DNA of 64,000 bases, taken from Tetradesmus obliquus (lineage: Eukaryota; Chlorophyta; Chlorophyceae; Sphaeropleales; Scenedesmaceae). Shown piece by piece: positions 2,638 through 64,000 of the stretch (positions within the stretch are counted from its first letter, which is position 1; every line of letters begins with the position of its first letter). A program made the position numbers and the translations under genes. The notes beneath the pieces were generated by a model. That model was not told the DNA's origin. It saw only the letters and a program-made list of their open reading frames with translations, and made no database searches. The stretch covers positions 3,410,001 through 3,474,000 of the forward strand of contig CP126200.1 of the NCBI GenBank assembly GCA_030272155.1. Direction: 5' to 3'.

Positions 2638-5326
2638 TCACAGCGCGCACAGGTTCTCCTTGGGGTGCTTCCTGAACAGGCCAATGCTGCACAGCAGCCG
2701 AGCACCCTCAATGAAACCAAGCGTCAGCAGCAGCGGCGTCACCAGCTGCGCAGCCGCCAGCTTCAGCGTGCCAGCCACCAGGATGGTAATCAGCAGCGCG
2801 CCGTTGCAAAGGATTACGCCCGCCAGCTGCCACAGCGCAACCGCCTCCCTGCTAGGCAGTGTCATCATCGCGAGTAGGCCATTCAATGGCCCGCGAGCAC
2901 CCATCACCACCTGCACTGCGGCCACCACCAGCAGCAGCTGCCACTGCGGCGCCAGCTGCCATGCAGCCAGTCCCTTGAACAGCGCGGCACCCGGCAGCGC
3001 TGCCAGCAGCAGCGTTGCGTTCTGCAGGTGCAGCTGCATGCTGCGGCTCTGCAGCAGGTTCACGGCGATGAACATACCCAGAATGCTGGCTGAGAATGCG
3101 GCTCCATTGACCGCAATCATGCCAGCAGTGCCGCGCAGAGCCACCAGCAGGTAACCCAGCACCGCTAGGCCTGCCATATCCAGCACAGATGCCAGCAGTG
3201 ACAGGTGAGGCGACTTGGGCCCTGAGAACATCACCACGCGCTGCTCGCGCCACTTCATGTTGAGCTTCAGATGGGTGTAACCGGGAGCCAGGCTGTTCGG
3301 CAGGCACATCCAGGTGCCCATGGCTGTGAGGGTGACTGCGACGGCTGCTGTGGTGGCCAGGAAAGGCATGTAGCTGACGGAGAAGATGGTGAGAGCTGCA
3401 CAGCTGGCCAGCAGCAGGGACTTGAAGGCGTCACTGACCATCATCAGGTGGAAGCCCACCTGCAAAGGAGCAGAACGTGCAGGCACAGCAATGGATGTGA
3501 GATACGGCAGGAGTAGTAACAGCTTGGATCAGCCATGCACACAGCACCTGACCCTTGCAGCAAGCAGTCATAGCAAGATGAAAGCCAGGCATGCGAGACT
3601 GGTTTAATGTCGAGCCAAACAGCTCGAGCAGGCAGCTTTTGACAAGCAGCCAGACCAAGTAGTAATCCAGCTGCCGGGTTACTCCAGTGTCACCCACCTC
3701 GCTGAGCTCCTGGTTACAGCCCATGAAGCCGAGTGACACCAGAGGGGCGCCAGCCAGCGCAAAGGGTGACACCAGCAGCAGCGCAGTGTTGGCGGCCTGC
3801 TGCCAGATGAAGGACAGCAGCACCACCAGGCTGCACGCCAGCGTGGAGAAGCACACCAGCAGCACGTAGCTCCTGCAAGGCGGCACAACACCCAGCAGCA
3901 GCATGGTGAGCATCATTCATAGAGCTGTCACAGAAACAGCCTCGGCGTCGGCTAGCGAGTCTCTATAGCTGCAAAAGTTTGGCAAGTAGCTGCCAGCTGC
4001 TGAGTTGGCTGGTGCTGTACAACCCCCCAGCAGTGCCAGACCACACCAGCATGGCAAGCTGCTTCCAGACTGATGGCTGCAACCCCGTAGCAAGGCCAGT
4101 TGAGCAAGCAAGCACGCAAGCAAGCAAGAAGGCAAGAAGGCAAGCAAGCCAGCCAGCAAGCAAGCTGTTGCGTGCACACTCACTTGGGTGTCTTCTTGAA
4201 GGCCAGGCAGGTCCAGATGGGTGCAGCAGCAGTGCTCAGGATGAGCTGCCACAGCACGCGCATGCCCAGGCCATTCAGGATCGGCAGCCACTCATTGTCG
4301 TGCGGGCGCAGCGGGCACGTGCTCCACGTCTGCCTGCTGATCTGCTGCAGCACCATGTACGCCAGCAGCAGCAGCGACGGCAGCATGCTCATGCTCTGCA
4401 GCAGCATGATCAGGTAGTTGCTGAACACATGGCGCGGCGTGACCTCCTCGTCCTGCTGCGCCTTCTTCTTCTGTGGGTGCTCCTTCTTATGGTGCAGGAA
4501 GCTGCTGCTCAGCGTGCCTAGCAGCCCACCGCTACTGCTCTTGCTGCTGCCGCTCTCGCTGATCTTCGTGACCATCACGTTGCATGTGCCAGCCGCCGGC
4601 GGCGCCGCTGCCACGAGTGCGGCCTGCAGGTTGAGGTTGCGGCGCTGCCAGGACTGCGCAAAGTACGTGTCAGTCTCGTTGGAGCCAGCCACTGCGCGGC
4701 CCTGCTGCTTGCTGCCGCTGACTGCTGCGCTGGCCGCATCAATCTTGCGCCACATTGCCTGGTACGCCTTCATCTGGTCCTCCACTACAAAGCGACAGGC
4801 CAGTGCGTCTGCAATGAGCTTGCGCCGCTTGTCTGCTGGCGTGCTGAGCGCTGCATTGAAGGCAGATGCCAGCTTGGCAGCCAGGTGAGGCACGGTGGCG
4901 GCGGCTGCAGAAAACAAGCAAACAGGCAGTGCAGCAGCAGCAGCAGCAGCAGCAAAAGTGAGGCCAGCAGCTCACGATCTGATGGGAATGCACAGTAGCG
5001 CAGTTGATGAATAGCAACCAACTCCGTTGCAGAAGCCGTTGCTGACCCAAAAGCATGTGCACGCTGTTGGTTCAGGGGCAATCTGCTGGATGCTCTGCAC
5101 TGCGCTCACCTGCCTGGAAGTTCTGCACCTAGCACGCACCACACTGACATGGCTTCTGCTACATATGTTGTGCAATTGTGGTTTTGTATCTCCAGGTGCC
5201 AGCGCTGCTCTCACCTGCTTGGAAGTAGAAGCCTGGCATCTTGCCCAGGCCGCCTGTTTCATTGCCGATGATGAGGCCGCCATACCAGCCAAACTCAATG
5301 TCAACCAGGCCACACGGCTCATACCT

Positions 5327-5358
<32 letters not shown>

Positions 5359-8300
5359 GGACACCATAAAGTAAGCTCGGGTCTGTCCTGCAAGCGAGCG
5401 ATACTAGGCTGCTGTACAGCTGCTGCCTGCTGTTTAGGGTGCGTATGTAGCAGCTCATGGCAAGCATGCTGTCGGGTGTTTGCAGTACGCCAACACAGCC
5501 ATATAATGTGCAGCTGGCCTCCATGTCTGACATATCCAGGCAGTACAACAGAGCTGGCTCCATCCAGCTGTGGGCCACGCAGTACATGCCATCTACTCTC
5601 TCCCCACCTGGAGGGGCACAGGCAGAAGTCAGCAGCAGCCAGCACTAGCTCCTTCTCATCTCCAGACACGTAGTGGTTGGCAGGCGCCACCAGCCTGCCC
5701 GGGTAGTCCAGCGCAAGCATACCCAGGCTCTCCTGCGCCTCAGCACCTGCCACGTCACCCAGAGGCCCCAGCACCAGGAGCTGCAGCTTCGGGTGGCGAG
5801 CCAGCACCTGCGGAGCTGCCTGAGCGATGATATCGACGCCCTTTTGGTGGGTGAGTCGGCCGAGGAAGATCGCGAGCTCGTACTGCTCGCCGACGGCGAG
5901 GCCCATGCGCTGCTGTATCGCGAGCTTTGCCTCGGTTTTGCGGCGGATGGCTTCGTCGGCGGAGAGGCCTGCGCCTGCCCACGTGCCGGCAGGGTCCATT
6001 GCGTTGAGGATTCCCACCACCTCGTCTGCAGGGCGGGAAAACGAGTTCAACAGAAGTGCAGCGGCAGGCCAGGAAGCAGCAATGTTAGGGCGCAGGCTGG
6101 GGCAGGATAGCTGCTGGGCAACTGGCAGGCAGCGGTAAAGCAGCATAACGGAAAGAACAGCGCCTGCCGCACCCATCCAGCCACATGTCTCACCCTGCAG
6201 TGTCTGCCAGAAGGGGCTCAAGCAAGCACAGATCAAGCAACACAACAGCAAAACACCCCAACTGCTGCACCTTCCCCTGCTATGCGGCGCTTGCCACTCA
6301 CCCTGCGGTATCTGCCAGAAGGGGCTCAGCCGTGTGCGGATCTCTGAGGCGTACTTGGGCGACACAGCAGCGCACCCAACTCCCTTCTGCGCCTCCACCA
6401 TGTGACTCAGCAAGCTGTGCAGCGTGTCAAAGGCACTCTTGTGCTCTGTGTACTTGCCCACAGCCGCAGGGTTCAGGTTGAACATGCTGTACAGGTACGC
6501 GCGGCGCTGCTTTGTCGGCAGCGCAAAGACGCCGTTGTAATGCGCATTGTGTGCGATGTAGAGCACCTCGGGGCGCAGGTGCTTTGGCAGGTACTGCAGG
6601 GACAGCGCGCCGTGGTAGTCGTGCAGCTGCAGCCGCCGCACACCCCAGTTCATGATGACTGTTGCGACTGCCTGGTTGACCACTGACAGCCACGTGATCA
6701 TGTCGTGCTCGCTGGCAAAGGAGTAGATGTCAGAGCGGCTGCGGTGGCGGAAGACGTTGGCCTGTAGCAGCAGGTACCTGCGGCGTGTGTGCAGAGGTGT
6801 GTGAAAAGCAGCACAGCAGGTGAGGGGTGAGCTTGTGAGCCAGTGGTGCAGCCGATGTTTTATAATGAACTCAAGATAGGGTGCCAAGAGGAATGTGACA
6901 TCAAGCTGTCGACACCAGCGGCAGCCAAAGGCTGTGTTGCCAGTATGCTGTGCCAGCAGCGGCGCTAGGGTCCGGCTACATCCAGATGTTGCTGCGCTCT
7001 CACCTGCGGGCCTTGCCGGGTGCTGCATCCGCAATGCACAGCTCAAAGACCTCGACCTGGTGCGCCTGGTGCCCCACTTGCACGTCGAAGCGCAGCACAG
7101 GCGGCCCGTGCACAAACTTGGGCGCTGTTGCCGCAGGATCAGAGTACGCTGCGGCATACAGCGGCGCACACAGCACCATGTCTCCTGGCCAGTCCCTGGC
7201 AAAGGTGTCGACGACCTTTCCGAGCCCGCCAAACACGAAGCCGTCCAAGCCGAGCTCCGGAATGGTATATTCCATTGCCACGTGCATGATGCTGTTCTCG
7301 GTGAGAGGTGTTACGGAGTGCGCGGATGCCGAGCTGCACGTGTCGGTGCGACGGTGGTGCGGGGGCGACGTGGTCTTCGTCTCGCGCACTGCTGCGATGA
7401 ACTCGGTGCTATCGTCCTCGCTGTCCAGCTCCTGCAGGTGAGCATAATCGAGCCATGGCACATCAAGTCAGACGACTAATACAAGTGCCGTTATAGCTTG
7501 GAGGGGAAGGCTGCTCGTGCATGTGCCCTGGCAGCTTGGCATGCTGCACAGCATTGCTTGCTGAAAAACACTGGACAAGCCCTGCAGCTTGTGTATACCA
7601 CAGCGAATGCAGCAATCTTGCTGTGCTGGCAGTGCTTAATGAACTGCCTCCAGGACTACCAGTCGCAGCTCCACTCACCGCCATGCAGCGAAGTGACGTG
7701 TTATGTAAGTCTGCTGCACTGTCCACTTTGCTGGGTGAGCCGGGCCTCTTCATTGGGCTGCTGGGCTGCTTGGCCAGCTTATCTTCAATGCTGGGCAGCT
7801 CTGCTGCTGCTGCTGTGCTGTTATCTGCGGCCTTAGCAGCTGCATCAGGCTGGTCCTTGCTGCGGCTGGGGTTGAGGCAGCTGGCAATGCGGCTGCAGGC
7901 GTTGAGCACGATTGCGGGCGGGCGCATGACGCCCCACCACACTGACAGGCACACAATGGCCATCGCCAGCAGTGTTACCAGCAGCACAAGCTGGTCCACA
8001 GGCAGCTGCAGGGAAGGGCACAGAAACATACAGAAATTAGCAACGCAGCAAGATGCAGGTGACACCCAGCAGGTGGCACCGGCTGGTCCATAGGCAGCTG
8101 CAGGAAGCATCAGAAGCACACAAACAAACAGAGCAGCAGGGAACGCTAAAATCTAGCCTGCACAAGCATCAGGTTTGCCAGCAGGCCACAAGCAGAACAA
8201 CCCCACTGTTACAGCAAGTCCATCCAGTTTGCAGTGCATGGCTGCTTAAAATGAGCATTTGCTATTGCTGGCTATAGGGTTATCTCTCTCATGCCGCGCA

Positions 8301-11300
8301 CCAGCAGCTTGCGTGGCGCAGCGGGCAGGAAGAATGAGGCTGGCTTGGCATCTGCCACAAACACCAGTGGGGCAATGTCAACCAGCTTCAGGTCTGCAGA
8401 GCCGTCTGCGTTGACTGTCAGCGTCACCTGCAGCAGCAACACGACCACAGCACAAGGTGACACGGGTAAGCACTAAAACCACCAACAAAGGGCTGGCTTG
8501 TAGGACTGCTGTGGCTGCCTCATTGTGCTACGAGTGGACAAACCAGCTGCTGCTACACAGATAATCTCAATGAGCTACATTTTGCGCAGCGCTGGGCCAT
8601 ACATCCACACTGCAAGCACTCACATTGGGGTTGAAGATGTTGCGCAGCGTCTGCCCGCGCATGCCGCGAGGCAGGTTTGTGAGCGCCACAATGCGCGGCA
8701 GCTCCTCTGGGTGTGCCTTTGCGAGCTGGCCGCTGAGCACCACCAGTGCTGCGCTGCCGCGCGTGAAGGCCATGACAAAGCCATCCACGTAAACTGTCTC
8801 GTAGTCTTGCTCCCAGAGCTTCAAGTTGGTGCGGTACCTGCGTCATTTGAGTTGGCAGGCGGCAGCAGCAGCAGGGGTAAGGATTTGTCGTACAGCATAT
8901 ACACCCTGCGCAGCTGCTGGTGCAAAGCATTTCATTGACCTGTGGACTGCACAACCAGTCCCTAATTCTGCTGCAGCTGCCTGCTGGAAGAGCTGGCTGC
9001 CTATGGCTAGGCATCCTCAGCAGCTACGGCCCGCACATCCCCAGCAGCAGTGTCGCTGTGTGTGCAGGCTCACCAGTTGAGCATCTTGAGGTTAATGTAG
9101 AAGGGGGCTGAGCTGTTGTAGTCCCACTTCTCCCACAGTGGCTCGCGCTGCACATCCTTCAGCGCCTCAGTCCCATAGTACACGATGGGTATGCCGGGCA
9201 CAAAGAAGGTGAAGGCCAGGGAGTTGCTGCGGGCAGGCAGGATCAGGGCAGGAAGCAGCAGGTAAGAGAGGCAGGGGGAAAGGGAGTAGGGTCAGCGCTA
9301 TCAAGGGCAGCAGGTAACAGACAGTTGAGTAGCATTCAACAAGAGGACAGAGCAGCAGTGACCGCATGTGGCGTGCTGCTGCTGTTCAGCTGCTGCAATC
9401 TCATTGCTGTAAGAGAAGCTGTACCAAAACGTGGCAAGGCTGGCTTGTGATGCAGCAGGAAACAAAGCAACCACTCACAGGATGATGTCCTCGTTGACAG
9501 TTGAGTAGGAGGCCATGCGGGGCATGTCGTGGTTGTCCATGAAGTTGCCCAGGATGTTCACTTGGTGTGGCATGGTCTGGAACACCAGGTCAACCGCTTT
9601 CTGGACAGGCGGCATCATGGCAAGCAGCAGCAAGCAGGGTAGGCAGCAAATCATCTGTGAGTAGGATGATGATGATGCACAGCGTTGGTATGGTCTGAAA
9701 CACCAGGTCAACCGCTTTCTGCAGTCAGCAACATCACAGCAGGCAGCGAAATAAGCAAGCAAGGCAAGCAAACAAAATGAGCGCGAGGGGTTGCCGGCCT
9801 CCAATTGCTGGTCAAACTATGATCACCATCTCAGTCAACAGGGTGCCACCAGAAGGCAGCAATCTGCTGCAGCCAAGCAGAGTCACGTGCAGCAAAGCAC
9901 AACAGCAGCCCAAAGCTGACCTGCAACAGAGCTGTGACATGATGATGCACACTGCCGCCGCACTCACCGCTAGCACGGTGGTGTTCAGTGTCTCGTGTGT
10001 GTGCGTGCCGTCGGGACCCAGGAAAACCCGCGCTGACGCGCCGTACAGTGCATACTGCAGCTGCGAGTGCAGCATGTTGTTGTTGACCATGGCTGCGAGG
10101 CGGCGCGTGCCGTTCTCCCAATCCATGTCCAGCACCTCTCCGATCGTGAGGATGCGTGCACGCCGCTTCATCTCTTGCATGAATTTCTGCAGGGGAAACA
10201 GGCAGTATGCAGTTAGGACACAAGTGACAACTCCCGCAGAGGGGTGTTTTGATTGGCACACATCATAACACAGCAGCAGTGCACCCCGTGCTCATGCATA
10301 GCGGAGCAGAATGCCAGCCGCCAGAACACATCATACCACACAGCCTGCAGATGCTACATCCAAGACATCACGCCTCAATCTCAATCTCACCATGGGCATA
10401 TGCTTTGCCGCGTCCACGCGGAATCCATCGATGTGGTACTCATCCCTGACCCATTCAATCCACTTGTGCAGCGTCTCAGCCACATGCGGCACAGTCTGGT
10501 TCAGATCTGGGAGGCCCTGCACGCGGCAGTTCTCCACGCCCCATTGATCGTTGTCGTTGGGGATGTTGCAGGTCTCTGGCTCGCATCCTGCGAGCGAGTA
10601 ACAAACGTGCAGCAGCAGCAGCAGCAGCAGCAGGAAGGTCATGCTTCAGATGCCCAGCAGGAGCAAAAAGCTCAGTGCATTGCCGCCAGACGTGTACTCC
10701 TGTTAGCATTGGCTCCCAAACAGGGCCAGCCGGCTGCTGACAGGCAGGCACTGAGACGGTGAGCTGCAACTCGTCTGTACAACAAAGATGGCATGATAAC
10801 CACATGTTTACAAACAGAACATAGGTACTGTGTTGAAGCTATTAGACAGACTGCTGGTGAGCAGGCACTCACGGTCGCAGGAGTGGTAGTACTCTGGCTT
10901 TGTAAAGGTCATCTCATGGATGTTTTCTGGTGCAAAGTACCCAGCGTGGTTGGGCACAATATCCAGCATAACCCACATGCCTGCAAGCATATATAACAGG
11001 GCACAAGGCATGTAATATGCACGCATGGCATTCAGCAATGAGGCGTGTGCTTGCATGGTGATTGTGACTTGCGTTTCTAGTCACCCGCTTGCCAGCAATG
11101 TACCTTGCCACCCAGCTGCTGTGCAGTGCTGACAACTGCTGCTGCAGCTTCCAAGGCACTGCTGTTAGTAAGGCGCTGCTGCTACTGTCGAGGCTTTTAG
11201 GTCGCTGCTGCTGATTGTTTGCTGCTGCTGCGCACCTCTGTCATGCAGTGCCTTGGTCAAGTCAGCAAAGTCCTGAGGGGTGCCAAGCATGGAGTTGAGG

Positions 11301-12178
11301 TCCCAGAGGTTCTGCAGACACACAAACCAAATAAGCTCGGTTAGACTGGCGCCAGCTGAAGCATTTGTACGCTTTTTCTGGCTGTGCTGCTGCATGGACC
11401 AGTGGCAGCCCAGTGTTTTTGCTGTTCCCAATGCATCAGCTGGTTCAGGGTTCCTCTGTGTGCACCGCATTCTGCACCAGCAAGCACTGGGTGCTGAACT
11501 TGTGCTGCACAGATTGGTTGTTCTCACCTTGGGCCAGTACCCTGCAGCGACAGAGCAGCAGCAGCAGCAGCAACAGCAGACGGAGTCGACAGCAGCAATG
11601 ACAGCATCATATGACAGCAATGCACTGCTGGCCAGGAGGATGCTGTAGAAGTTCGTCAAGGACCGAATGTACCTGTGCTTTGCATATAGTCTGCAATGGC
11701 TGTTTGTGGGCTCTTGCATTTTTGGCAACTGCCGGAGTCAAAGTAACTTGCGGAATCCTCTCACCGTGCCAGCCATCCTGCAGCTCGCGCACTGGGCCAC
11801 CAGTCTGTGACGTTACTGGACTAATCCAAACGGCATCGAAGCCCATTCCCTGCGGACAAGGTGTCGGGTGAGTGGCCGAGACCTTCGAGCCACGCAGCAA
11901 CAGACCAGACGATCCGACGACGGGGACAGGTGTACCTGGATGTAGTCAAGCCTCTGCCGCAGGCCCACATGTGTGCCTCCGCATGCATTGTCGAGATCCT
12001 TGCAGGGCCGAGGTGTGCTTGGGCAGTCGGGCAGAGCAAACCTGTCCGTCAAGATGTGCAGCACGCTCTTGCTGGCCCACTGTTCGGCTGCTGGACCGTA
12101 TGATGCGGCAGTAAAAGCAAAAGATACAAACACGAGGCAGCTACAGAGGAACAACGAGCCCCGGCTGGGCCCCCACAT
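2638..12178 (-). CDS. AGS1: Alpha-1,3-glucan-synthase-like GH13-TM-GT5-multiTM protein
   Basis: Nineteen exons (12178-11936, 11849-11765, 11541-11528, 11311-11236, 10980-10873, 10587-10391, 10186-9968, 9600-9479, 9226-9074, 8837-8624, 8427-8302, 8005-7679, 7431-7004, 6777-6302, 6025-5608, 5324-5215, 4904-4184, 3872-3698, 3459-2638) join in phase to about 1,677 residues. Order: signal peptide (1-26); GH13 amylase domain with DIVPNH (146-151), GFRVDAAKH (nucleophile D234), GEVLD (acid E258) and FMDNHD (D339); a membrane segment (about 520-543); a GT5 domain with GGLG (about 696), RLTHQKG (986-992) and the E-x7-E motif EPCGLVDIE (1071-1079), then GGLGKMPG; and about 12 C-terminal membrane segments. 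This is the architecture of fungal Ags1/Mok1: outer amylase-like domain, cytosolic synthase, multipass exporter-like end. Plastid starch synthases have no GH13 domain or membrane tail. Oddities: the usual Lys before GGL is absent; length is below the roughly 2,400 residues of fungal proteins. Product and location are inference. Confidence 0.9.
5325..5357 (-). repeat. (CTG)n tract at a 3' splice site
   Basis: An uninterrupted CAG run on + reads as CTG repeats on the transcript and ends directly in the CAG acceptor of the exon that begins at 5324 in the glucan-synthase-like gene. It is the clearest single case of a recurrent arrangement in this window. Confidence 0.85.
11528..11541 (-). other. 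14-nt microexon of the glucan-synthase-like gene
   Basis: CTGCAG precedes and GTGAGA follows this 14-nt block. It completes a split Gly and adds Tyr-Trp-Pro-Lys, turning QDGWH into the GH13 motif H-G-Y-W. Phases are 1 on entry and 0 on exit, and the next exon (11311-11236) continues in frame. Skipping it would shift the frame. Confidence 0.75.
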
Positions 12179-40000: not shown

Positions 40001-42963
40001 CTCTGCCAGCAGTGCAGACTTTGCCCCTCGGAAGCCGTAGATCCCCTTGGGACGTTGAATTGGCGGCAGCAGCACCAGCAACAGTGGCAGCAGCAGCAAT
40101 GGCAGCAGCAGCAGTGGCAGCAGCAGCAGCAGCAGCAGCAGCAAAGTTAAGTTGAAGAACGGAGGCCAGCACCCAGAAACACAACGCAGCACAGCCACCG
40201 CCCCATGCATGCAGCTCAAACTGGCACAGGTTGGCGGTGTGTAACAGTCCTGTAACAGTCATTTGACAGTCATGTAACAGTCAGGTAACAGGCATGTAAC
40301 ATGGGCCCCACCTGGTCCGGGTCTCCCACCATGAACAGGCTGCTGCTGGGGCTGGTCAGCGCCTGCACCAGCTCAAACTGGCACATGTTTGTGCTCGTAA
40401 CTGTCATGTAATAGTCATATAACAGTCATGTGACATGGGCCTCACCTGGTCCGGGTCCCCCACCGTGAACTGCTGGGGCTGGTCAGCGCCTGCACCAGCT
40501 CAAACTGGCACATGTTTGTGCTCGTAACTGTCATGTAACAGTCATGTGACATGGGCCTCACCTGGTCGGGGTCCCCCACCATGAACAGGCTGCTGCTGGG
40601 GCTGGTCAGTGCCTGCACCAGCTCAAACTGGCACAGGTTGGTGTCCTGCGACTCATCGACCAGCACATGGCGCCAGCGGCGGTGCACCGCAGCCCTGACC
40701 TGCGGCGTTTTTGCAGGCATCGCAGGGCTATTTTGGGTGCAGGAAGCAGCAAAGACGCTGATACAAACAAAGGCAGTGTGCTTGCAGGACATATTGCAGT
40801 GTTTGTTGGTGTACATTGCAAGGTGCACCTTTTCTCCCTACGCACCACACACATTGCAAACTTCGCATGCCTCACCTCAGCGTTGTTCAGCAGCAGCGCA
40901 AGGCAGTGGTGCAGCAGATCATCAAAGTCCAGCAGCTGCTGCTGCGCCATGCGGGCCACGTACTCGTCATACATGGCAGCGATGCGGCGCGTGATGTTGC
41001 TGTTGTCGCCGCCTGGCAGCCTGCGTCCCGCTGCAGCCATCTGTGCAATGAGCTCTGCGCCAGACCGTCTGCAGTTTTGACATCCCAGGGGCATGTGATC
41101 ACCCATTTGTACTGGTCACGAGCGCAACTTGCCTTTGCTATGTACGGCATGGTATGTGTGTACGGAGGCTTTTTTGAACCACGGGAAATTCAAACCAGGG
41201 AATGCTGCTGCAGCACAAATGCCTTGGCTTGGCTGCGTCTATCCATGGTCTTGGTTATTTGATGCAGTGCATTGGTTAGCAAGCAGCATTGCGCTTCATT
41301 CTGAGGCGCTTCTGCAGGCACACACATATGTCAGTCAGTAGTCAGTAACATACTAACACGCAGGCTCACCGCTCAATGTTCACGCAGAAGTTCTTGATGT
41401 TGCTGATGTGCTTGCGGTAGTATGTCACCTCGTCCTTGCCCTTCCGGTCCTGCTGCTCGCCGGCAAAGTAACCCAGCTCCTTTCTAAAATCTGCATTCTC
41501 AAGGATGGACTTGACCATGGCTGCCGCATCGTCTTCGCTCGCCACTTGGAAGTTTGGCAGGTGCGTGTGCTGCCTGTAGTGCCTGCAGGGACGCCACAGC
41601 AGCAGCATGGGGAAGTGTGATGGCACCTGCGGAAGTTCAGAGTGCACTGCACGCCTGTTTCAACAGCCCGTTGCTCTGCCGCCTGCAAGTACACGTCTGC
41701 ATGCCGACTTTCTCCTGTTCCTGCAGGAGGCAGGAGATCTTAACCCCCGTCCCCCTCCCCTCCACCCACCTCAGCAGGTTGGTGCACAGCGAGTCGAAGG
41801 TGCTGGGCCGCAGCCGTGCTGTTACTACCTCACCCAGCAGCTCCTGCAGCCACTAGTGTTTAGTACCACTGTACTCATGCAGGCTGTGGTGACAGGCCCT
41901 ACAAACCCACCATCTGCCCACCCGGCACACACCACATCGTTTCCCCCATTGCTTGCAGCAAGGAGGCAGCCGGCCCCCTGTAATTGTGCGTCACACGTCT
42001 TACTCTCCTTACCTCAGCAGGTTGGTGCACAGCGAGTGGAAGGTGCTGGGCCGCAGCCGCGCTGTTATTGCTTCGCCAAGCAGCTCCTGCAGCCGTTGCA
42101 GCAGCTCGCCCGCTGCCTTGCGCGTGAAGGTGATGACCAGCAGCGATTCCGGCGCGTGGCCAGACGCAATGAGATGAGCCACTCGGGCTGCAACCACACG
42201 CGTCTTGCCGCTGCCGGGGCCTGCAGCAGCAGCAGCAGCACATGGGTGGATTGAGCTCATCATACAGCATCAGCAGCATCAGCAGCAGCAGCAGCGGTGC
42301 AGGCAGACGATGGAGATGAAGAGGATGTTCCGCACATGCACTGGATCAAGTGATGGTGGGTTGCGTAAAGGTGATGACGAGAAGTGACTCATGGGCATGG
42401 CCGGATGCAATGAGGTGCGCCACTCGGGCTGCAACCACGCGCGTCTTGCCGCTGCCAGGGCCTGAAGAAGTTGACAAACCACAACGAGTTTGGGGCATTG
42501 CTATCTGATGCCAGATCACGACATGTGGCAGCAGCGCCTGCAGTAGCCAGAGGGGTGCTGCAGCGCATGCGCCGCATTGTTCTTGTTACGGCTGCCTGGG
42601 TGAAGCAGAGGCGTGTCGTTGTTTGAACCCGCAACATTGCACACTGACATCCTCGCATAGCAGTCGACAATGTCCAAGCAACCATGCGCATGCAGTGCTG
42701 CTGTCGCCACCGTCACCAGCTGCTGCCGCAGGCAAGCTACTGCAGCACTATTAGAACGCACCCGCAATGACTGTCAGACCCAACAGGCGTATAACACACA
42801 ACACAAAGACAGCGGATAACCTATGGCAGCCCACCTGCAATGACTTTTACGTGCTGCTCTGGGCTGAAAGCAGCCAGTTGCTGCTCATCATTCAGCTGCG
42901 CCAGGTATGCTTGCACTGCCGCATGGTGCTGCGGGTCCAGCGTTGACGACTGCAGCTGCACAG

Positions 42964-49009: not shown

Positions 49010-50738
49010 TGGTAAGAGAGGCAACAACCGACCCATGCACACACACACACACACACACACATACCACAATGCAATCTCCAGCGGCCACACACTGCAACAT
49101 CTGCTGAATGCAACATCGCTATCGCCTGGCCCATTTGCCAGGTGCCAGCCAGCATCGATTGATCCCCGCAGATGCTGCATCAATGAATACACAGCTTTGA
49201 CAACTCTGTGAACAACTCTGTGATCAACAAGCTATCTCATAGATAGGTGCTCATTTGCTTGCGTGCATGCTGCAGTCAACGACACGTGTGCATAACTTCT
49301 CCTCCCACCTGCACGATGTCTTTGAACTTGTCAGCCACTGCTGCTGCTGCTCCATCTGCATCTGCATCACCGCCAGCTGCTGTAGGCTCTGCTGCTGCTG
49401 CTGCCGCACTGCCTGCCTGTGCCGCGCTCTCCTTGAGGCAGCCGCGCCGCTCAATGATCTCAATGAAGATGGTGGGCCTAAAAACACAACAGCAGACACA
49501 GCACACACAATCAGACCTCGCATCATACCACTAGCGTGTGAAACAATTGGCTTTGGCTCATGTCACAGCTGGTTAGCTTGCTGTCGATACGTGCAGACGC
49601 TGCACGAAGCAGGACCTGACTAGCGCAGAATATGTGCACCATCCGCAGCCTCATACAGCAAACACAAAGCCACGTAAAGCACATGCAGGCATGTTCAGCA
49701 GGCCCTTTCAAAAGATGTAAGATCTTCACCATGAAAACTGCCACACCAGCGCCCACCTGTCACCCAGCGGCTTGGTGAAGATCTGCAGCAGCACGCCCTG
49801 GTCGTCCTGGTCCACCAGGATGCCCAGCTGCTCAACGGCTGCCCACTCCTCCGGGGACAGCACGTCACCCTGCAGCAGCAGCAACAGCAGCACCCCCAGC
49901 ACAGACGATATGATGATGGCGTTCTGTGCACAACTCAAGCCATATTGCCAGTGTACACAGCTGCTCCATGGCAGACCGCTCCTCAGGAGACAGCACGTCA
50001 CCCTGCAGCAGCAGCAGCAACAGCACCCCCAGCACAGACGATCTGATGATGGCGTTTGTGCATGACTCAAATCATACTACCAGGATGCCCAGCTGCTCCA
50101 CAGCAGACCACTCCTCTGGTGACAGCACGTCACCCTGCAGCAGTACAGAAGAGGTGCCGAAGCTCATGATCAGCGCGGCATGCTGCTAGCGCGGCATGCT
50201 GGTGGTTGATTCAGCTCCAGATCACACACATTGCTGAACACACTAAAGGTTGGTGAGCTTGCCTTAGTCGCCACAACTTTCACTATATGCGTCCTGCATT
50301 GTTCATCCACAAGTGCATCCCGATACACCACCACAGCCAGCAACACCATCACCCTCGTACCAATTCATGTGCCCGCAACACACCGCACCACAGCCACCCA
50401 GCAGCACGCCTCACCACTGTCTCCGCCACGCGCTTGTAGTAGTCGTGCCTAACCGCAGCCTAGTTTAAGCAAGCATGTGCAGTAGCACCAAATCAAACCA
50501 GCAACTCTTCCAATGTGCCCGGCAACACACCGCGACAGCAACATGTACCACATGACATAATGCGCTCACCACTTCATCCGCCACGCGCTTGTAGTAGTCG
50601 TGCCCGGGTGCCGCCTGGAACTCGAAGCCGCCGCAGCGCGAGCGCGCGTGCATCTCGCGCATGGTGGACAGGATGTCGTGCGTCTTCAGCGCCAGGTGCT
50701 GCAGCCCGGGGCCCTCGTTCTGCTCAAGGTACGTCTGC

Positions 50739-50769
<31 letters not shown>

Positions 50770-53700
50770 CGTCAGAAGCTGTGGTGCTTGCCGGTGTCTG
50801 TCAGACAGTAAGCCAGGTGCTGTTGCCTGGGGCCCTCATTCTGCTCCAGGTACGTCTGCAGCTTCATCACCAGCAGCACACATCTGAACTCGATAGGTGC
50901 TTGAACCGCAGGTTGCTTATGTTGATGCAAATCAGCCATGTTGTACATGCAGCACACGGCTGCTGAAACAACCCAAAGCTCCCAGGGTGCCGTACATCAC
51001 ACCACCGCCACGCAACAACATGCATGCGAAGGCACCCTGCAGACAATGGCAGCAACATACGCACGCAGCTCTTCTTTCACCACACCTGGAACTTTGATTT
51101 TACTCTTGGCCCATCAGCTCGTTCATGGGCAGCAGTACCCTCTCATGATTTGATCGCATGTGTCAAAGTGCTCAGAAGCAGCCTCACTCGCCGCACCTGG
51201 ATCTGCAACTTGCGCTTGGTGCCGAAACATTACCTCGTCAGAACAGCAGCACAAGGAAGCAGCAGCACAAAAAGGTGCTTGGATGCTTGTAAGCAGTTTG
51301 AAACACACCTGGATCTGCGACTTGCGCTTGGTGCCGAAGGTGGGCTCGTTCATGGGCAGCAGCACCATCTCGTTGTTGCTGGCCAGCACCATGCTGTTCA
51401 GCCCGCTGTCCACAGTGCCCACGTCCTCCGCCACAAACTCGGCAAACTCGTGGAAGCCTGCAGTGAAAAGGCAGGCGGCAGCGGCGGCAGTGTCAGTCGG
51501 AGTCTTGCTAGCTGCAGTGAAGTGCGCAGCCCAAACACAGAGCTCTGTCCACAGTGCCCACATCCTCAGCCACAAACTCGGCAAACTCATGGAAGCCTGC
51601 AAGGGAACAGAAGGCCACAGAAGCAGTGACAGTTGACATGCAAGTGACTGCGGTGAAGTGCGCAGCCCGAGCACAAAGCAACGGACCCTGCCTTCCGCCG
51701 CAAACATGATTGGAAGCCTGCCAATATCTACAAAATGAGCCCTGAGGAAGCTTCAACCTCCTGCCATGCACATGTGAAGCCGATGACGTGCTCTTGGTGC
51801 TCAATGGTGCAGGGTGCAGGATCAACGCTTTGCCTGCACTTACAAATCCCAAGCAGTGGCCCTTATGAAATCACTTAGACGCACCTGTGAAGCCGATGAC
51901 GTGCTCCAGGTGCTCGATGAGCTTGGGCACGTTGCCCACCACGCAGTCCAGGCACTGCAAGGCTGACCTAAGCACGCACATCACCCTATCCTGAAGTCCT
52001 ACAAGTTCGCTCACACACCCCAGCAGCCCATACCGTGCTCCACCTGCCCAATAGCGCAGGGTGTAAGATCAACCCCTTTGCTTGTCATGATAAACCCAAG
52101 CTGTAAGCCCTGATCAAAACATAGACGCACCTGTGAAGCCAATGACGTGCTCCAGGTGCTCGATGAGCTTGGGCACATTGCCCACGGCGTGGTCCAGGCG
52201 GTGCAGGCCGTAGCAGATCTGCGGCTCATCAGGCGTGGCTGTGTAGCCCGGCAGGTAGGGGCCCTGCATGCATGCGGCACAGCAGGATGTTGGCGTTGAC
52301 AGGCAGTTGTTCAGCAAAAGCAGCATTGCATGTTTTGTAGAGCGTGGCGGCGCACTGAGCAGGGTGCGCCTAAAAGGGTGCGCCTGCAGTGTGACAAGAT
52401 GGCGTGCCGAAGCGACCAATGACCAATGGGGAAGGCGGATCCAGCACCGCTGCAGCCAGCTGAAGCCTCCACGACCTTCTTCTTGCAATGTTATCCCTGT
52501 TTCCCACAATCACAACTCACGGCAACAGCAGATAAATTTCAAGACTCTGCAAGGGTCTTCTTGCGCACCTGCCACTTGCCGCTGATGTAGCGCAGCACCA
52601 CCACACGGTACAGCAGCACGTCGCTGACCACAGCGCTGACAAGCACAAAAGTGACAGCAAGTACTGCAGGTGCAGTGCCTTCTTCGTGTGATGTAATATG
52701 ATCTGACGCACCTGCCACTTGCCGCTGATGTAGCGCAGCACCACGTCACCATACAGCAGCACCTCCTGACCACAGCGCTGGCTAGGCATACACAGTGACA
52801 GGTGGTGCAGCTGCCTTGCCTTCGTCAAGTACCATGCCAGGTTCTTAGTAGCGTATGCACAGCACCAGCGACAGCCTCAAGGTTGCCCTTCTTGCACTGA
52901 TCTACCTTTTTCTTGATAACGAACTCGCAAATGACCCAACAGGTATACATACAAGAATCTCTTTGCGCACCTGCCACTTGCCGCTGATGTAGCGCAGCAC
53001 CACGTCACCGTACAGCAGCACCTCGCTGACCACAGCGCTGACAAGCACAAAAGTGACAGCAAGCACTGCAGGTGCAGTGCCTTCTTCGTGTGCTGTAGTA
53101 GGTTCTGACGCACCTGCCACTTGCCGCTGACGTAGCGCAGCACCAGGTCACCGTACAGCAGCACCTCGCTGACAAGAGCGCTGACTAGGCACACACGGTG
53201 ACAGGTGATGCAGCTGACAAGAGCGCTGACTAGGCACACACGGTGACAGGTGATGCAGCTGACAAGAGCGCTGACTAGGCACACACGGTGACAGGTGATG
53301 CAGCTGACAAGAGCGCTGACTAGGCACACACGGTGACAGGTGATGCAGCTGACAAGAGCGCTGACTAGGCACACACGGTGACAGGTGATGCAGCTGCCTT
53401 GCCTGCGTCATGTGCCGGGACAGCTTCTAAGCAGCGCATGCACAGCACCAGCGACAGCCTCAAGGTTGTCCTTCTTGCACTGGGTTCCCTCTTTATCAAG
53501 AAAGACCCTCTTACTTGATAAAAAAACTTGCAAATGACCTAACAGGTATACATACAAGGATCTTTGCGCACCTGCCACTTGCCGCTGATGTAGCGCAGCA
53601 CCACGTCACCATACAGCAGCACCTCGCTGACCACAGCACAGCCGCCGCCATCCTCCAGCTTGGTGGGTGGACGCACACCCTTCGCGCCGTTTGCCACAGA

Positions 53701-58766: not shown

Positions 58767-59422
58767 TGCTGGTAAGCTAGAACCCGTGTTGATGAATCAT
58801 TTTGTTGATGTTAATACAGGCTGTCAACAACAACATTCAAGTGGATCGCACGGTCAGTGGGTGCATCCACAACTTCTCAACTGAGCATCAACATGACGTG
58901 TAAGCGAGCTCAAACACGTATAATATTTATTCTTGATGCATACAACAACTGGCGTCGCAGCAGGACTTGAACACGACCAAACCCCAAAACGCGCAGCCAG
59001 TAACAGGTAGATAACAAGTGCGTTCACCTCGCTGTGGCTATAATTTTTGTACAAGGGACTGTGATGGTAATTTTGCTGGGTTTACACGTTGTTTCAGCAG
59101 CTCTGGACAATCTGCAGCAGTCTTGAGCCTTCGATCTTTGCGCTGCTGGGCTCTTGCGTGTTGAAGAGTACGCATAAGTTATTATCTGGTCATTTGAAAC
59201 CAGCTGTAGCGGCACCTGTGTGTACTGGTGCTTCCACAGCACTCACGTAACTTTGGCAGCAGCAGCAGCAGCAGCCGCGTCCATACCAGCAGGCTCGCTT
59301 CACGTCCAACCCAGAACACGTCCGACGTTATGTCGGACGATACCGTAAACGGATAACAGGGCTGCTGGCGGCCCTTGCCGAGTACCGGGGCTGCTAGCAG
59401 CCTCTGCACAGCAGCAGCCAAC
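58767..59422. promoter_or_regulatory. Divergent promoter region, helical-protein and Pol I subunit genes
   Basis: 656 bp between two outward-facing starts. A TATAATATTTATT stretch at about 58919 is the most AT-rich part. No other element is recognised. Confidence 0.4.
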
Positions 59423-60266
59423 ATGTTGAAGGGTCAGGCTAAGGGGCCGGAGCCCCCGCAGCAGTTTGAGAGGCTGGTACGCCCTCATGTGGCCAGCTTC
59501 GACTACTTCCTGCAAGATGGCATGCGCCAGGCAGTGCAGCTGCAGGAGCCGCTGCAGGTGCACACCGCCACAGCTCACACATGCTCCAGTGCATTGGCTT
59601 CTGGAGGAGACCACATTGCGCCTGGTTGGCAGCAGCAGCACAGGCAGATTTGGCTGTATCGTGCTGCACCTTGTCACTCTGATCAGTTGATTGGCCAGCT
59701 ATTTGCAGCAATGAGCCACCTCAGCAGCCCTCCTCTGAACTCTTCCTGGCCCAAAACACTTTATAGACTCAATCGATGCACTTCTTTCAGCGGGCAGCGC
59801 ACCATGTATCTGTACATCAGCGAAGCCTGCCACTGGCAGCTGTCGTCAACACCTAACACCAAACTCGCTGTCACCGCGCTGCTTTCTGCTGCTGTGCCGC
59901 CTCACCAGGTGGAGCACCCTGTCACCAAGCAGGTGTTTAGGTTCTGGTTTGAGTCGCCAGTTGTGTCCATGCCCACCAAGGACGATGCACCCACAGGAGC
60001 TGATACGCGGCTCTACCCAAGGGACTGCAGGGAGGGGGTGAGCAGCAGACGAATAATAGTGAAAAAGCAGTTGTGCTGGGGCTGAGCAATGCTGGCCTTT
60101 AGGTTAGGTTGGTTAGGTTAAGTTGAAGGAGCTGTGCGACAGGCGTTGCAAGGGGGTTGGACACGAGCAACAGTGACTGGCAGCAGTGGCAATGTCCAGT
60201 GCCTCCGTTTCAGTCACATCGAAACTTCCAACACACTCATGGATTGCCACATTGACATCTTGCTGC

Positions 60267-60311
<45 letters not shown>

Positions 60312-63300
60312 TCAACAATACTCAACTCCTGCAGGGCACCACTTACAAGGGCGCCCTCACAATGGACCTCTGTTGGGAGGCAGAGGGCAGCGGGTCAGGC
60401 CGGCACAGCATCTCGCGCCGCATGGGGGCCCTGCCCATCATGGTCAAGAGCAGTGCCTGCTACCTGAAAGGCATGAACAGGGCGCAGCTGGTGGCCGCAA
60501 AAGAGGAGTCCACCGAGTTTGGTGGCTACTTCATCTGCAACGGTATTGAGCGCATCATCCGTGTGCTCATCCTGCAGGTATGGTTGCAGGCTGCTGCTTA
60601 TCTGCCTTGTTCCAGCTGCAGCTGCTAGTTCTATTATATTATTTGTTGCAAAGCGTAGCTTAAGCCAGACCCTAAATGTTGGAGGTGCGTGTTGAAGCGA
60701 CTTATCAGACCAGCCGTTGCCATGCAGTATGGCGATGCTGACAAGCGTGCTGTGTGCTGGTTGATCTGCTGAGCAGCTTGCGCTGAATGTTCTGCAGTTG
60801 TAAGGAAAACCAAACAGTGCAGGAACACAGCTGCGTGTCCGCCCTGTGGGTGCTGGGCCATCAAGCAAAACAGCTCTGCCTAATCCTGTCTGATTATCTG
60901 TGTCTTCCGTCCTGTCCTGCAGCGGCGGCACTACATCATGGCGCTGAAGCGCAGCGCCTACCTCAAGCGTGGCGCCAACTACACGCCAGCAGCCACGCTG
61001 CTGCGCTGCGTGCGGCCAGACCAGAGCAGCGCCACGGTGCGATGCCACTACCTCACAGAAGGCGGCGTGAACTTTGCCTTCACGATGCGGCGAGCCGAGT
61101 ACTTCATCCCAGTGGGCATCCTGCTCAAGTGCTTCGTGGAGGTGAGCCGCCAACGCTTGCAGGAAACACCACCTGGCTTGCAGGAAACAGGGCCTGCTTG
61201 CAGGACGCCTGCACCAAGCAAATGCGGTCATGATCGGCGCGTGTAGTCAGCTGTCAGACTGACACACCCCTCTCACCAACATAGCCAGCCGAAACATACA
61301 ATGCAAAGATCAAGGCCCCTGCCTGCACCACTGCAGTGTCCAATCACTGCGGGAGTACTGCAGCCCTCACTTGGGGACTCGCGGGAGGCCAGATTACGCA
61401 CACCTATCCTGGTTTAAAGCAGGCATGCAGCGCCTTCCTGCTCGCCTGTGTCGGACCCAGGAGACATGGCCACACCAATGGCACAACATCTGTTCAACAT
61501 CCGCCAACATGCATCCCACGATTGTTTGATTCGGCTGATGACGGTGCCCCCAAACTGTCGTGTTTGTGTTGCTGCTGCTATCTGCTCCTACATCCGCTGC
61601 TGCTGCTGCTGCTGCTGCTGCTCAGATGTCTGACCGCGAGCTGTTTGACAGGGTGGTCAGCTGCGCGGAGCCTGGCAGCGCGCACGCGGGCTGGGTGGCG
61701 GCGCGCGCGCAGCTGCTGCTGCAGCAGCTGGGCAGCAGCGGGCTGTCCACGCGGCAGCAGTGCCTGCAGTACCTTGGGGAGCACTTCAGGGTGGTGCTCA
61801 GCCTGCCAGACAGGTGCGGCTCCCCAAGGTTTTCACGGTGTGCGGTTTGCGTCCTCTGTAGGGCCATACGCAGGTTGTGCGCACAGCGCAATTCAGCAGA
61901 GTTATAGGACTGTAGCATGCCTCGTGGGATCAGTTCTAGTCAACCGTGTCTGCAGGAATGTTTCGCCACAGCAGCGCTGGTATAATGTTGCTGCTGCTGC
62001 TGCTGCTCCTTTGTTGTCACTGCACCTGCACAGGTTAAGTGATGCTGCTGTGGGCGAGGAGCTGCTGCGGCGCTACGTGTTCATCCACCTGGAGCACGCC
62101 GCTGACAAGCTGCAGCTGATGCTGGCCATGGTGCACAAGCTGTATGCGCTGGTGAGGCCTGCTGGCTGGTGACTGGTTGTGGCTGTTTGTGCTGTAGCTG
62201 TTTGCGCTGTGGCTGTTGTTGGTGCTGTGGTGATGCTGGCCATGTTGCACAAGCTGTACGCGCGGTGAGGATCTCGTGCACAGGGGTTCTGTGTATCACT
62301 GGTGATGTTCACTCATTTGGCGTGGGACCGAGCTGTTTTGGGCACTGCGTTCGAATGTTGAGTGCACGCGTGTGGGTATGCTGGACCGCAAGTGGGGCAG
62401 GCCAAAACTGCATACGCAGAAGGGCTATGTTGCGCTTTTCGCGTTCTTTTTTCCATTGTTGCCGTTTTTGCGAGTCCTGGGGCGCGGCCTGCTGATGAGT
62501 GATGAGTCTCCTGCACATCTACGAGGGCTGAGGGCAGGGGGGCACCCCTGCCGCTGCTGACAACGTCTCATTTCACTACTGAAGGTCTCCCAGGACTCTT
62601 GTATGATGTACTTAGATTTTACTTTGATGTCGTTGAGTGTTCTGCGTGGTTGGTGATGATGATGTTTTTGTGTGTAAGATGTGGCCGCTACAAAGCCTGG
62701 TGCGCGCCCTGCCCATGGTGCAGCCCCTTACTTCCGCTGCCTAGACCAAGACACGCGCACGTCTGCAGTTGTGCCCTCGGGTGCAGCTGTGGCCGTGTGC
62801 GTGCGGCTGACAACCGGAGTCCTTACCCACGGCAGGCTGCAGCCTCCACTGCAGCCAGCCACTAATTGCACGGACCACATCTCTGTACATCACCCACCTC
62901 CCTCCCCGTCTGTCGTTTGCACTCACTGTCTCATTCCAACACAGCCAGGCTACCTACTGGAAACGTCTTATAACATGTTACAATTGTTATCTGCTCCTTG
63001 CTGCATATGTTTGTCTACCACCAGGTCAACGGGCAGTGCTGCGAGGACAACCCTGATGCGCTGACGCACCACGAGCTGCTGCTGCCGGGGCACCTGCTGC
63101 TCAAGTTCTTCAAGGAGAAGCTTGATGACTGCCTGGCGGCGCTGGGAGAGGCAGTGAACAAGAAGCTCGAAAGCGCGCCAGACACCAACCTGCAGGTACG
63201 TAAGCATTTGTAGGTGTTTGTTGTGTACTGCTGATATGGATCGTGACTGCCTGGCGGCACTGGGGGAGGCAGTCAACAAGAAGCTGGAGAGCGCGCCAGA

Positions 63301-64000
63301 CACTAACCTGCAGGTACGTAAGCATTTGTATGGGTTTGTTGTGTACTGTTGATACGGATCGCGACTGCCTGGCAGCGCTGGGGGAGGGCAGGCAACAAGA
63401 AGCTCGAAAGCGCGCCAGACACCAACCTGCAGGTGTGTTTGTGATGCGCACGGTATGTTGCTGTTGTTGGATGTATGTTTGTGCAATAGGTGACGTTAAG
63501 GATGCATCTGGGACTGCAGGTTTGCTGCGTGCTGGTGCCTAGAGCACGCCAGGCAAGTTGTTGTCTTGCTAGTGTTGGACTATGCCCATGGCCGCTACAA
63601 AGCCTGGTGCGCGCCCTGCCCATGGTGCAGCCCCTTACTTCCGCTGCCTAGACCAAGACACGCGCACGTCTGCAGTTGCGCCCTCGGGTGCAGCTGCCAG
63701 CGTGTGCGTGCGGCTGACAACCGGAGTCCTTACCCACGGCAGGTTGCAGCCTCCACTGCAGCCAGCCACTAATCGCACGGACCACATCTGCAACCTATCG
63801 CAGCTTTTACATCAAGTTGTGTCGATCGCATATCGGCGTAGCCAGGTGCAGCATCCTCGCATTTCATAGACGCGGACCACAGACTCAAGATGCTGAAAAG
63901 TGCCACGTTTAACCGTCCATCCAGCTATGCAGCAACTAGCTACCCAGCCATCTGAAAACGGCGGCACTGTCTCGCCTCCTACAGCTGTGTCTTCTGCTGC
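59423..64000 (+). CDS. RPA2: RNA polymerase I second-largest subunit (3' truncated)
   Basis: Exons 59423-59557, 59909-60037, 60335-60577, 60923-61141, 61626-61813, 62034-62151 and 63025-63195 join in phase to about 400 residues, roughly the first third of the protein. Family blocks: HVASFDYFLQDG, SPVVSMP, LYPRDCREG, TTYKGALTMDL, GALPIMVKSSACYL, EFGGYFICNGIERIIRVLI, QRRHYIMALKR, YLGEHFRV, YVFIHLEHAADKLQLMLAMV and LLPGHLLLKFFKEKL. The NGIERIIR-to-QRR block and short N-terminus fit Pol I rather than Pol II or III. The start at 59423 is preferred over an in-frame ATG at 59375 because the conserved part begins right after. An eighth exon was not found before the window edge; 63196-64000 is intron with exon echoes and a duplicated block. 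The subunit forms half of the active centre for rRNA synthesis in the nucleolus. Confidence 0.9.
60268..60313 (+). repeat. (CTG)n upstream of Pol I exon 3
   Basis: About 14 CTG units end 20 nt before the acceptor of the exon starting at 60335. Similar tracts precede the exons at 61626 and 62034. Confidence 0.85.
62217..62270 (+). repeat. Echo of the Pol I exon-6 end
   Basis: GTGATGCTGGCCATGTTGCA and the bases after it repeat the end of exon 62034-62151 (MLAMVHKLYA), including the following GTGAGG, about 115 bp downstream. Confidence 0.85.
62682..63789. repeat. 201-bp direct duplication, copies 907 bp apart
   Basis: 62682-62882 and 63589-63789 match at all but about six positions, starting TGGCCGCTACAAAGCC and ending ACCACATCT. 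They flank the 63025-63195 exon of the Pol I subunit gene. No coding role is evident. Confidence 0.9.
63126..63436 (+). repeat. Three tandem copies of the Pol I exon-7 end, 118-bp period
   Basis: The end of exon 63025-63195 (coding DCLAALGEAVNKKLESAP plus GTACGTAAG) repeats at 63249 and 63367 with an exact 118-bp period. The second copy is still open and has an identical donor; the third has a frameshift (GGGGGAGGGCAGG) and a changed donor. Confidence 0.92.

Follow-up and report, generated by a model that had tools for sequence, protein, structure and literature searches.

The stretch of DNA analysed here (the window; 64,000 nucleotides of the green alga Tetradesmus obliquus, assembly GCA_030272155.1, contig CP126200.1, positions 3,410,001 to 3,474,000) carries on its minus strand a gene whose predicted product resembles the fungal alpha-glucan synthases Ags1/Mok1 in the order of its parts, namely a GH13 amylase part, a membrane span, a GT5 synthase part and a terminal multi-span domain. 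A preliminary description of the window had proposed one gene in one frame across 19 exons, and joining the exons by hand from the sequence reproduced that model exactly, from 12178 to 2638, with 1677 residues and GT..AG borders at all 18 introns, which are 86-367 bases long. An in-frame TAG lies three codons 5' of the ATG. Moreover, two proteins predicted by others from metagenome contigs (Joint Genome Institute), P0004 (1198 residues) and P0005 (1505 residues), each hold a partial GH13 and a GT5 within a single protein, together with the membrane domain or at least its beginning, and the fusion of GH13 with GT5 therefore does not depend on our own splicing alone. Judged from its sequence, the gene is real and well formed. 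Outside the model, intron 7 repeats in tandem, with one difference, the first 29 bases of exon 8, and reading onward from this partial copy meets a stop just inside exon 8. The motif TGTAA, which is the usual polyadenylation signal of green algae, was not found in the 600 bases 3' of the stop codon (2038-2637).

Three Pfam families matched the predicted protein above their cut-offs, PF00128 (alpha-amylase; residues 55-376, E=1.8e-43), PF08323 (starch-synthase catalytic; residues 693-920, E=5.3e-9) and PF00534 (group-1 glycosyltransferase; residues 974-1137, E=4.8e-12). Together with hydropathy and the motif positions collected in Table 1 (D234/E258/D339 and E1071-x7-E1079), they bear out the order that had been described, in which GH13 is followed by a membrane segment and by GT5 with its E-x7-E motif. 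The signal peptide that had been claimed corresponds to a hydrophobic N-terminus at residues 7-25 and is, by hydropathy, a probable one. The C-terminus does show as a multi-span domain, and the "about 12" spans given to it exceed what a crude hydropathy scan supports, which found nine hydrophobic segments beyond residue 1262. A segment at residues 353-371 lies inside GH13 and is a false hydropathy segment, and the N-glycosylation sequons, five before the first span and four in residues 544-1260, were set aside as a hint to topology.

Table 1. Features of the Ags-like gene and its predicted product (positions in the window)
Feature	Position	Strand	Evidence or remark
Whole coding region, 19 exons, 1677 residues	2638..12178	-	18/18 introns GT-AG, single frame, TGA stop
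Hydrophobic N-terminus, residues 7-25, exon 1, probable signal peptide	12104..12160	-	Hydropathy only
GH13 domain and its C-terminal part, residues 33-503, exons 1-11, TAKA-amylase-like	8350..12082	-	PF00128; solved relatives
GH13 region I, D146 of DIVPNH	10961..10963	-	Alignment, coordinates
GH13 nucleophile position D234 (GFRVDAAKH)	10412..10414	-	Alignment, coordinates
GH13 acid/base position E258 (TIGEVL)	10136..10138	-	Alignment, coordinates
GH13 third catalytic position D339 (DNHD)	9526..9528	-	Alignment, coordinates
Partial tandem copy of exon 8 start, in intron 7, outside the model	9690..9718	-	29 bases, one difference from 9572-9600
Membrane span 1, residues 525-543, exon 12	7934..7990	-	Hydropathy 2.57
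GT5 synthase domain, residues 677-1158, exons 13-17	4747..7287	-	PF08323, PF00534, fungal Ags score, tree
E-x7-E motif, E1071 to E1079, exon 16	5294..5320	-	Motif check
C-terminal multi-span domain, residues 1262-1677, exons 17-19, end ENLCAL	2641..4437	-	Hydropathy; relatives' scores

The GT5 part of the window protein scored 188 bits against the best fungal Ags and 70 bits against the Escherichia coli glycogen synthase GlgA, and it is 22-32% identical to nine starch synthases encoded by the same genome. A GT5 tree (23 sequences, 257 columns) was built from seven algal-type and three fungal Ags-type domains together with 13 comparators, which were those nine starch synthases, rice granule-bound starch synthase (GBSS), barley starch synthase I, Cyanophora GBSS and GlgA. 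Four of the seven chosen fungal sequences (P0006, P0011, P0012 and P0015) were dropped, as the cutting pattern missed them, and three were left, while the starch-synthase fragments were cut by our own spliced aligner with GlgA as guide and have rough exon ends. In this tree the ten Ags-type domains were split from the 13 starch and glycogen synthases with support of 99.9/100, and the algal domains, which are 35-36% identical to the fungal ones, formed a clade of their own against the rest (98/99). Forcing the algal GT5 domains together with the plastid synthases was 59 log units worse and was rejected by the approximately unbiased (AU) test (p=1e-5), so that the grouping expected in the preliminary description, with fungal Ags and outside the plastid starch synthases, was recovered. 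In addition, the HN, GRxxxQKG and E-x7-E motifs are kept in all seven algal or metagenome sequences and in all 11 fungal-type sequences. On this phylogeny, the algal and fungal Ags GT5 are truly related, and the GT5 of the window protein belongs with the fungal ones and not with the plastid starch synthases. The link between the algal and fungal domains is old, because each group is single and the two are separated by long branches, and it may reflect either inheritance or ancient transfer, both of which fit the data.

An extremely unlikely alternative is that a plastid starch synthase adjoins an amylase gene by chance. Pfam does call the domain a starch synthase, and the plastid enzymes belong to the same CAZy family GT5 and share the E-x7-E motif and the QKG region, but they lie on the other side of the 99.9/100 split of the tree, the forced grouping fails the AU test, fused proteins occur in other algae, and the window product is predicted to be a membrane protein with a hydrophobic N-terminus and spans. 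This explanation was thus refuted on sequence. A search of the genome for GT5 gave 28 exon-level matches at ten loci, which are the window and nine loci of the starch-synthase kind. One of these nine, a divergent locus at C2:1290500-1297500 (L042) with an open frame of 1290 residues, branches apart from the other eight.

Relatives of the whole protein are present in other green algae. A full-length search of 5.8 billion proteins yielded 16 matches among 8000 scored candidates, 11 of which are of the fungal Ags type (ten of 2354-2410 residues and an unnamed one, P0016, of 1421 residues). The other five are P0001 from Scenedesmus sp. PABB004, P0002 from T. obliquus, P0003 from Elliptochloris bilobata and the metagenome proteins P0004 and P0005; Scenedesmus is chlorophycean and Elliptochloris is trebouxiophycean. 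All five have the domain order GH13, GT5 and membrane domain in common as far as each reaches, P0004 stopping early in the membrane domain and P0005 being without the front of GH13, and they match the window protein best in GT5 (40-51% identity), GH13 being 28-33% and the membrane domain 21-30% identical. The C-terminal domain scored 109 bits with P0001, 95 with P0002, 42 with P0005 and 24 with P0003. Apart from the first span of P0002, which is considered below, P0001, P0002 and P0003 have the same architecture as the window protein, with GT5 parts 44-51% identical to its own. The existence of algal relatives, which the preliminary description had left open, is therefore already recorded in the databases, where P0001 carries the name mok12. 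No Ags-type gene of a green alga was found to be described, by title or start of abstract, in a full-text literature search whose reach leaves out most subscription journals. A second homologue search with the GT5 and membrane part of the Elliptochloris protein returned only the query and P0001 and missed known relatives, and is therefore given little weight. Motif-based scans for prokaryotic and viral relatives, which were derived from the algal GT5 alignment and reach only carriers of the algal motifs, gave 25 pattern matches in genome contigs and 102 in viral contigs, none of which was confirmed.

The T. obliquus genome itself (104.7 Mb in 17 contigs) also holds further copies. With P0002 as query, 35 exon-level matches were obtained, of which 17 are on contig C12 (13 of them 78-95% identical), 15 on contig C2 (14 of them 67-86% identical) and three in the window. 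Spliced alignment showed the C2 copy to be near-complete, beginning with the hydrophobic N-terminus and ending with ENLSAP. The window gene is a more distant paralogue, 55% identical to the C2 copy in the GT5 core, and it branches apart from the P0001/P0002 type, both types being held by this genome. The copy at C12:2803000-2814000 (L030, L031), which is damaged, contains repeated exon pieces. A fungal source, by way of a recent transfer or of contamination in the assembly, would agree with the database name mok12, which recalls fungal genes, but it is very unlikely in a genome of 17 contigs that has related copies on C2 and C12 as well as starch synthases, and it fits neither the separate clade of the algal GT5 domains and their modest identity to the fungal ones nor a GH13 unlike that of fungi. 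It was rejected because of the related copies elsewhere in the genome and the trees, and the Ags-like genes are, from these comparisons, a green-algal gene family. Searches of the genome for GT48 and for the alpha-1,3-glucanase family GH71 were empty, and they were uninformative, as their controls were also silent.

The GH13 part has a different set of relatives. The best solved relatives of the window GH13 are alpha-amylases, including TAKA-amylase A, with 200 bits at best and leading matches to TAKA-type structures at about 180-200 bits, while for the GH13 of the fungal protein P0007 the matches cover short stretches and are led by neopullulanases and bacterial amylases (about 44 bits), ahead of TAKA-type structures (31-34 bits). 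A search with the GH13 part gave at least 1605 stand-alone matches among 8000 scored candidates; the 120 listed are 31-39% identical to the window GH13 and include many unnamed environmental proteins, the named ones coming from Bryopsis, social amoebae, Pelomyxa, Haematococcus, Trichoplax and fungi. Scored in one set, the window GH13 reached 275 bits with the best stand-alone amylase (an unnamed European Nucleotide Archive protein), 257 bits with that of the green alga Bryopsis and at most 25 bits with fungal Ags. By its closest relatives and its catalytic motifs (the triad and the LPDL-type, NH and NHD motifs), it is an amylase domain of the TAKA type, which we take to be subfamily GH13_1, and it differs from a secreted TAKA-type alpha-amylase in being fused to a span, a GT5 and a membrane domain; a stand-alone amylase is encoded on contig C9 of the same genome and, like the nine starch-synthase loci, is a suitable internal comparator for the tree test named in the preliminary description. 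All six aligned algal Ags sequences keep the triad along with the region I and region IV histidines, and both histidines are missing from four of four fungal Ags.

GH13 trees were built without an outgroup and with an E. coli outgroup, using 32 and 20 of the 120 listed proteins and five and four of the ten longest fungal Ags, respectively, with P0005 left out as partial. The GH13 parts of the algal Ags and one Haematococcus protein formed one group in both trees (97 without the outgroup, 86.8/92 with it). When four E. coli GH13 enzymes were added, the fungal Ags GH13 joined them, outside the TAKA-type clade (98.9/98), and forcing the algal and fungal Ags GH13 together with Haematococcus kept out gave AU p=0.043. 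On balance, the scores and the rooted tree favour a different origin for the algal GH13 than for that of fungal Ags, the algal part being more likely than not of the ordinary eukaryotic secreted-amylase type. The grouping Haematococcus protein (P0050, Haematococcus lacustris, 589 residues) continues from its GH13 into a hydrophobic stretch and may be the leading piece of a truncated gene model, which would extend this family to the Chlamydomonadales.

The two kinds of protein also differ outside the catalytic parts. The window protein is about 700 residues shorter than fungal Ags1/Mok1, and the distance from the end of GH13 to the first span is about 22 residues (503 to 525) compared with about 360 in P0007 (span at 1079; domain end by our own reading), the long fungal region before this span being absent from the alga. 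Six Pfam families (PF26108, PF26775, PF26114, PF26111, PF26122 and PF26127) are annotated for the long fungal matches and for none of the five algal or metagenome matches, these being annotations of the relatives only; in the Pfam run of this analysis they went unreported even for P0007. The "complete fungal-type" architecture of the preliminary description stands for the domain order of Ags1 (a signal peptide followed by GH13, a span, GT5 and the multi-span domain) and the descent of GT5, and is overstated as regards the type of GH13, the long region before the span, these annotated families and the relatedness of the multi-span domains. At the very end of the protein, an alignment from the C-terminus matched the last nine residues of the algal and fungal proteins (ENLSAP-like and EQLSKP-like, respectively) with a score of 16.0, and all 309 controls stayed below it, their maxima being 7.9 in 200 shuffles, 8.5 in 55 shifts and 7.0 in 54 other cut ends. 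This match hints at homology of the multi-span domains and does not prove it.

Several observations weigh against the reading of the gene as an Ags-type synthase with an old GT5 line and a different GH13. In the tree without an outgroup, the fungal Ags GH13 has a very long branch and stands beside three fungal amylases of the TAKA-type clade with support of 60. The region I histidine is lost also in all three fungal amylases shown, and the region IV histidine in one of the three; the loss is therefore no clean mark of Ags, because ordinary fungal amylases share it. Grouping the algal with the fungal Ags GH13 while Haematococcus was free to join cost 14 log units and was not rejected (AU p=0.155); this test is the fairer one and is relied on here, and a separate origin is not proved, since a shared origin was rejected only with Haematococcus kept out. 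Profiles of the two GH13 parts can also be aligned by hhalign over 349 columns (probability 99%, 24% identity). Such points, together with the sister position of the GT5 parts and the matching last nine residues, would fit an orthologue of fungal Ags in all parts that descends from a common ancestor and whose fungal GH13 evolved fast and gained an extra region, so that rate and not origin would set the two apart. We regard this as possible and somewhat doubtful, given that the fungal Ags GH13 leaves the TAKA-type clade once the E. coli enzymes are added and that the solved relatives of P0007 and of the algal GH13 are so unlike. The grouping of GH13 with fungal Ags that the preliminary description had expected is thus opposed by the scores (275 against at most 25 bits) and the outgroup tree, with a common origin still statistically acceptable, and the greater nearness of GH13 to ordinary amylases is one half of the refutation which that description had spelled out.

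Further contrary points concern the other parts and copies. The KxGGL lysine is found in 11 of 11 fungal-type but only one of seven algal sequences, and V, M or T replaces it in the other six, the window protein having V; if this lysine binds the sugar nucleotide, as we presume, the activity or the donor of the algal GT5 may differ. Homology between the algal and fungal multi-span domains was not detected by hhalign profile comparison in the first run and three settings, and only the last nine residues of these domains match above controls. As annotated, the Tetradesmus protein P0002 shows no first span. The C2 copy has one in-frame stop in its GH13 part in the spliced model, with a second, in the linker, appearing only when P0001 is used as guide. 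One of the three copies in the genome, that on C12, is damaged, and its counterpart to P0002 residues of about 300-820 was neither matched (31 of 73 candidates scored) nor recovered by spliced alignment.

Elsewhere in the window, tandem repeats with units of 118-133 bases lie at 40269-40643, 49814-50143 and 63126-63434, and at 53168-53396 a 45-base unit is repeated perfectly about five times. The repeat at 40269-40643 overlaps one end, the last part, of a frame matching UvrD/REP helicase (40609-41115, minus strand), and duplication of exon-plus-intron pieces may therefore be common in the window. A weak match to the start of the RNA polymerase beta subunit (PF04563), below cut-off, is present at 59357-60082. 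Rfam and tRNA scans of the window found nothing.

With these points weighed, the product of the gene is probably a green-algal form of the membrane-bound Ags-type alpha-glucan synthases, which combines the old GT5 line with a different GH13 and works by the mechanism proposed here, and the protein would probably make alpha-glucan across a membrane. The GT5 part, in the cytosol, would lengthen an alpha-glucan from nucleotide glucose (UDP-glucose by analogy with fungi), and the C-terminal spans would pass the chain outward. On the outer or lumenal side, GH13, with its full amylase active site, might cut or transfer alpha-1,4-linked segments, by which chains would be trimmed, joined or released at the surface. 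We infer the direction, donor, linkage and place of synthesis, and the sequence itself supplies the parts alone. This mechanism is proposed by analogy to Schizosaccharomyces pombe Ags1, for which the passages available of one study give the extracellular domain a presumed role in joining two chains and treat the multi-span domain as a possible pore (PMC5753165). The algal enzyme might instead make an extracellular glucan that is alpha-1,4-linked (amylose-like) or mixed, and not alpha-1,3-glucan, a possibility that falls somewhat short of an even chance. TAKA-type enzymes act on alpha-1,4 links, and the active site of the algal GH13 is complete. Moreover, the same passages report that overexpression of S. 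pombe Ags1 gives an iodine-staining, presumably alpha-1,4-linked glucan, which depends on the synthase domain and is abolished by its mutation E1526A (PMC5753165). On the other side, in the clade from which the algal GT5 descends, the fungal enzymes make alpha-1,3-glucan.

Discussion of alpha-glucan in green algae normally centres on plastid starch. Within the part of a 2013 survey of glycosyltransferases that was available, GT5 of the sequenced green and red algae is given as starch synthases only (PMC3797821). We tentatively propose that core green algae have their own ancient line of surface alpha-glucan synthases, in which an Ags-type GT5 as old as the split from the fungal one would be coupled with another kind of amylase whose active site is complete. 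If so, such algae would possess a second alpha-glucan pathway outside the plastid and an unrecognised alpha-glucan of the wall or coat, and the Ags architecture would have been assembled, or its amylase exchanged, at least twice. With an Ags-type synthase in both Chlorophyceae and Trebouxiophyceae, a surface alpha-glucan and a pre-fungal origin of the architecture become testable. Should a natural exchange of the amylase be upheld, it would help to reveal the part of Ags that determines the product.

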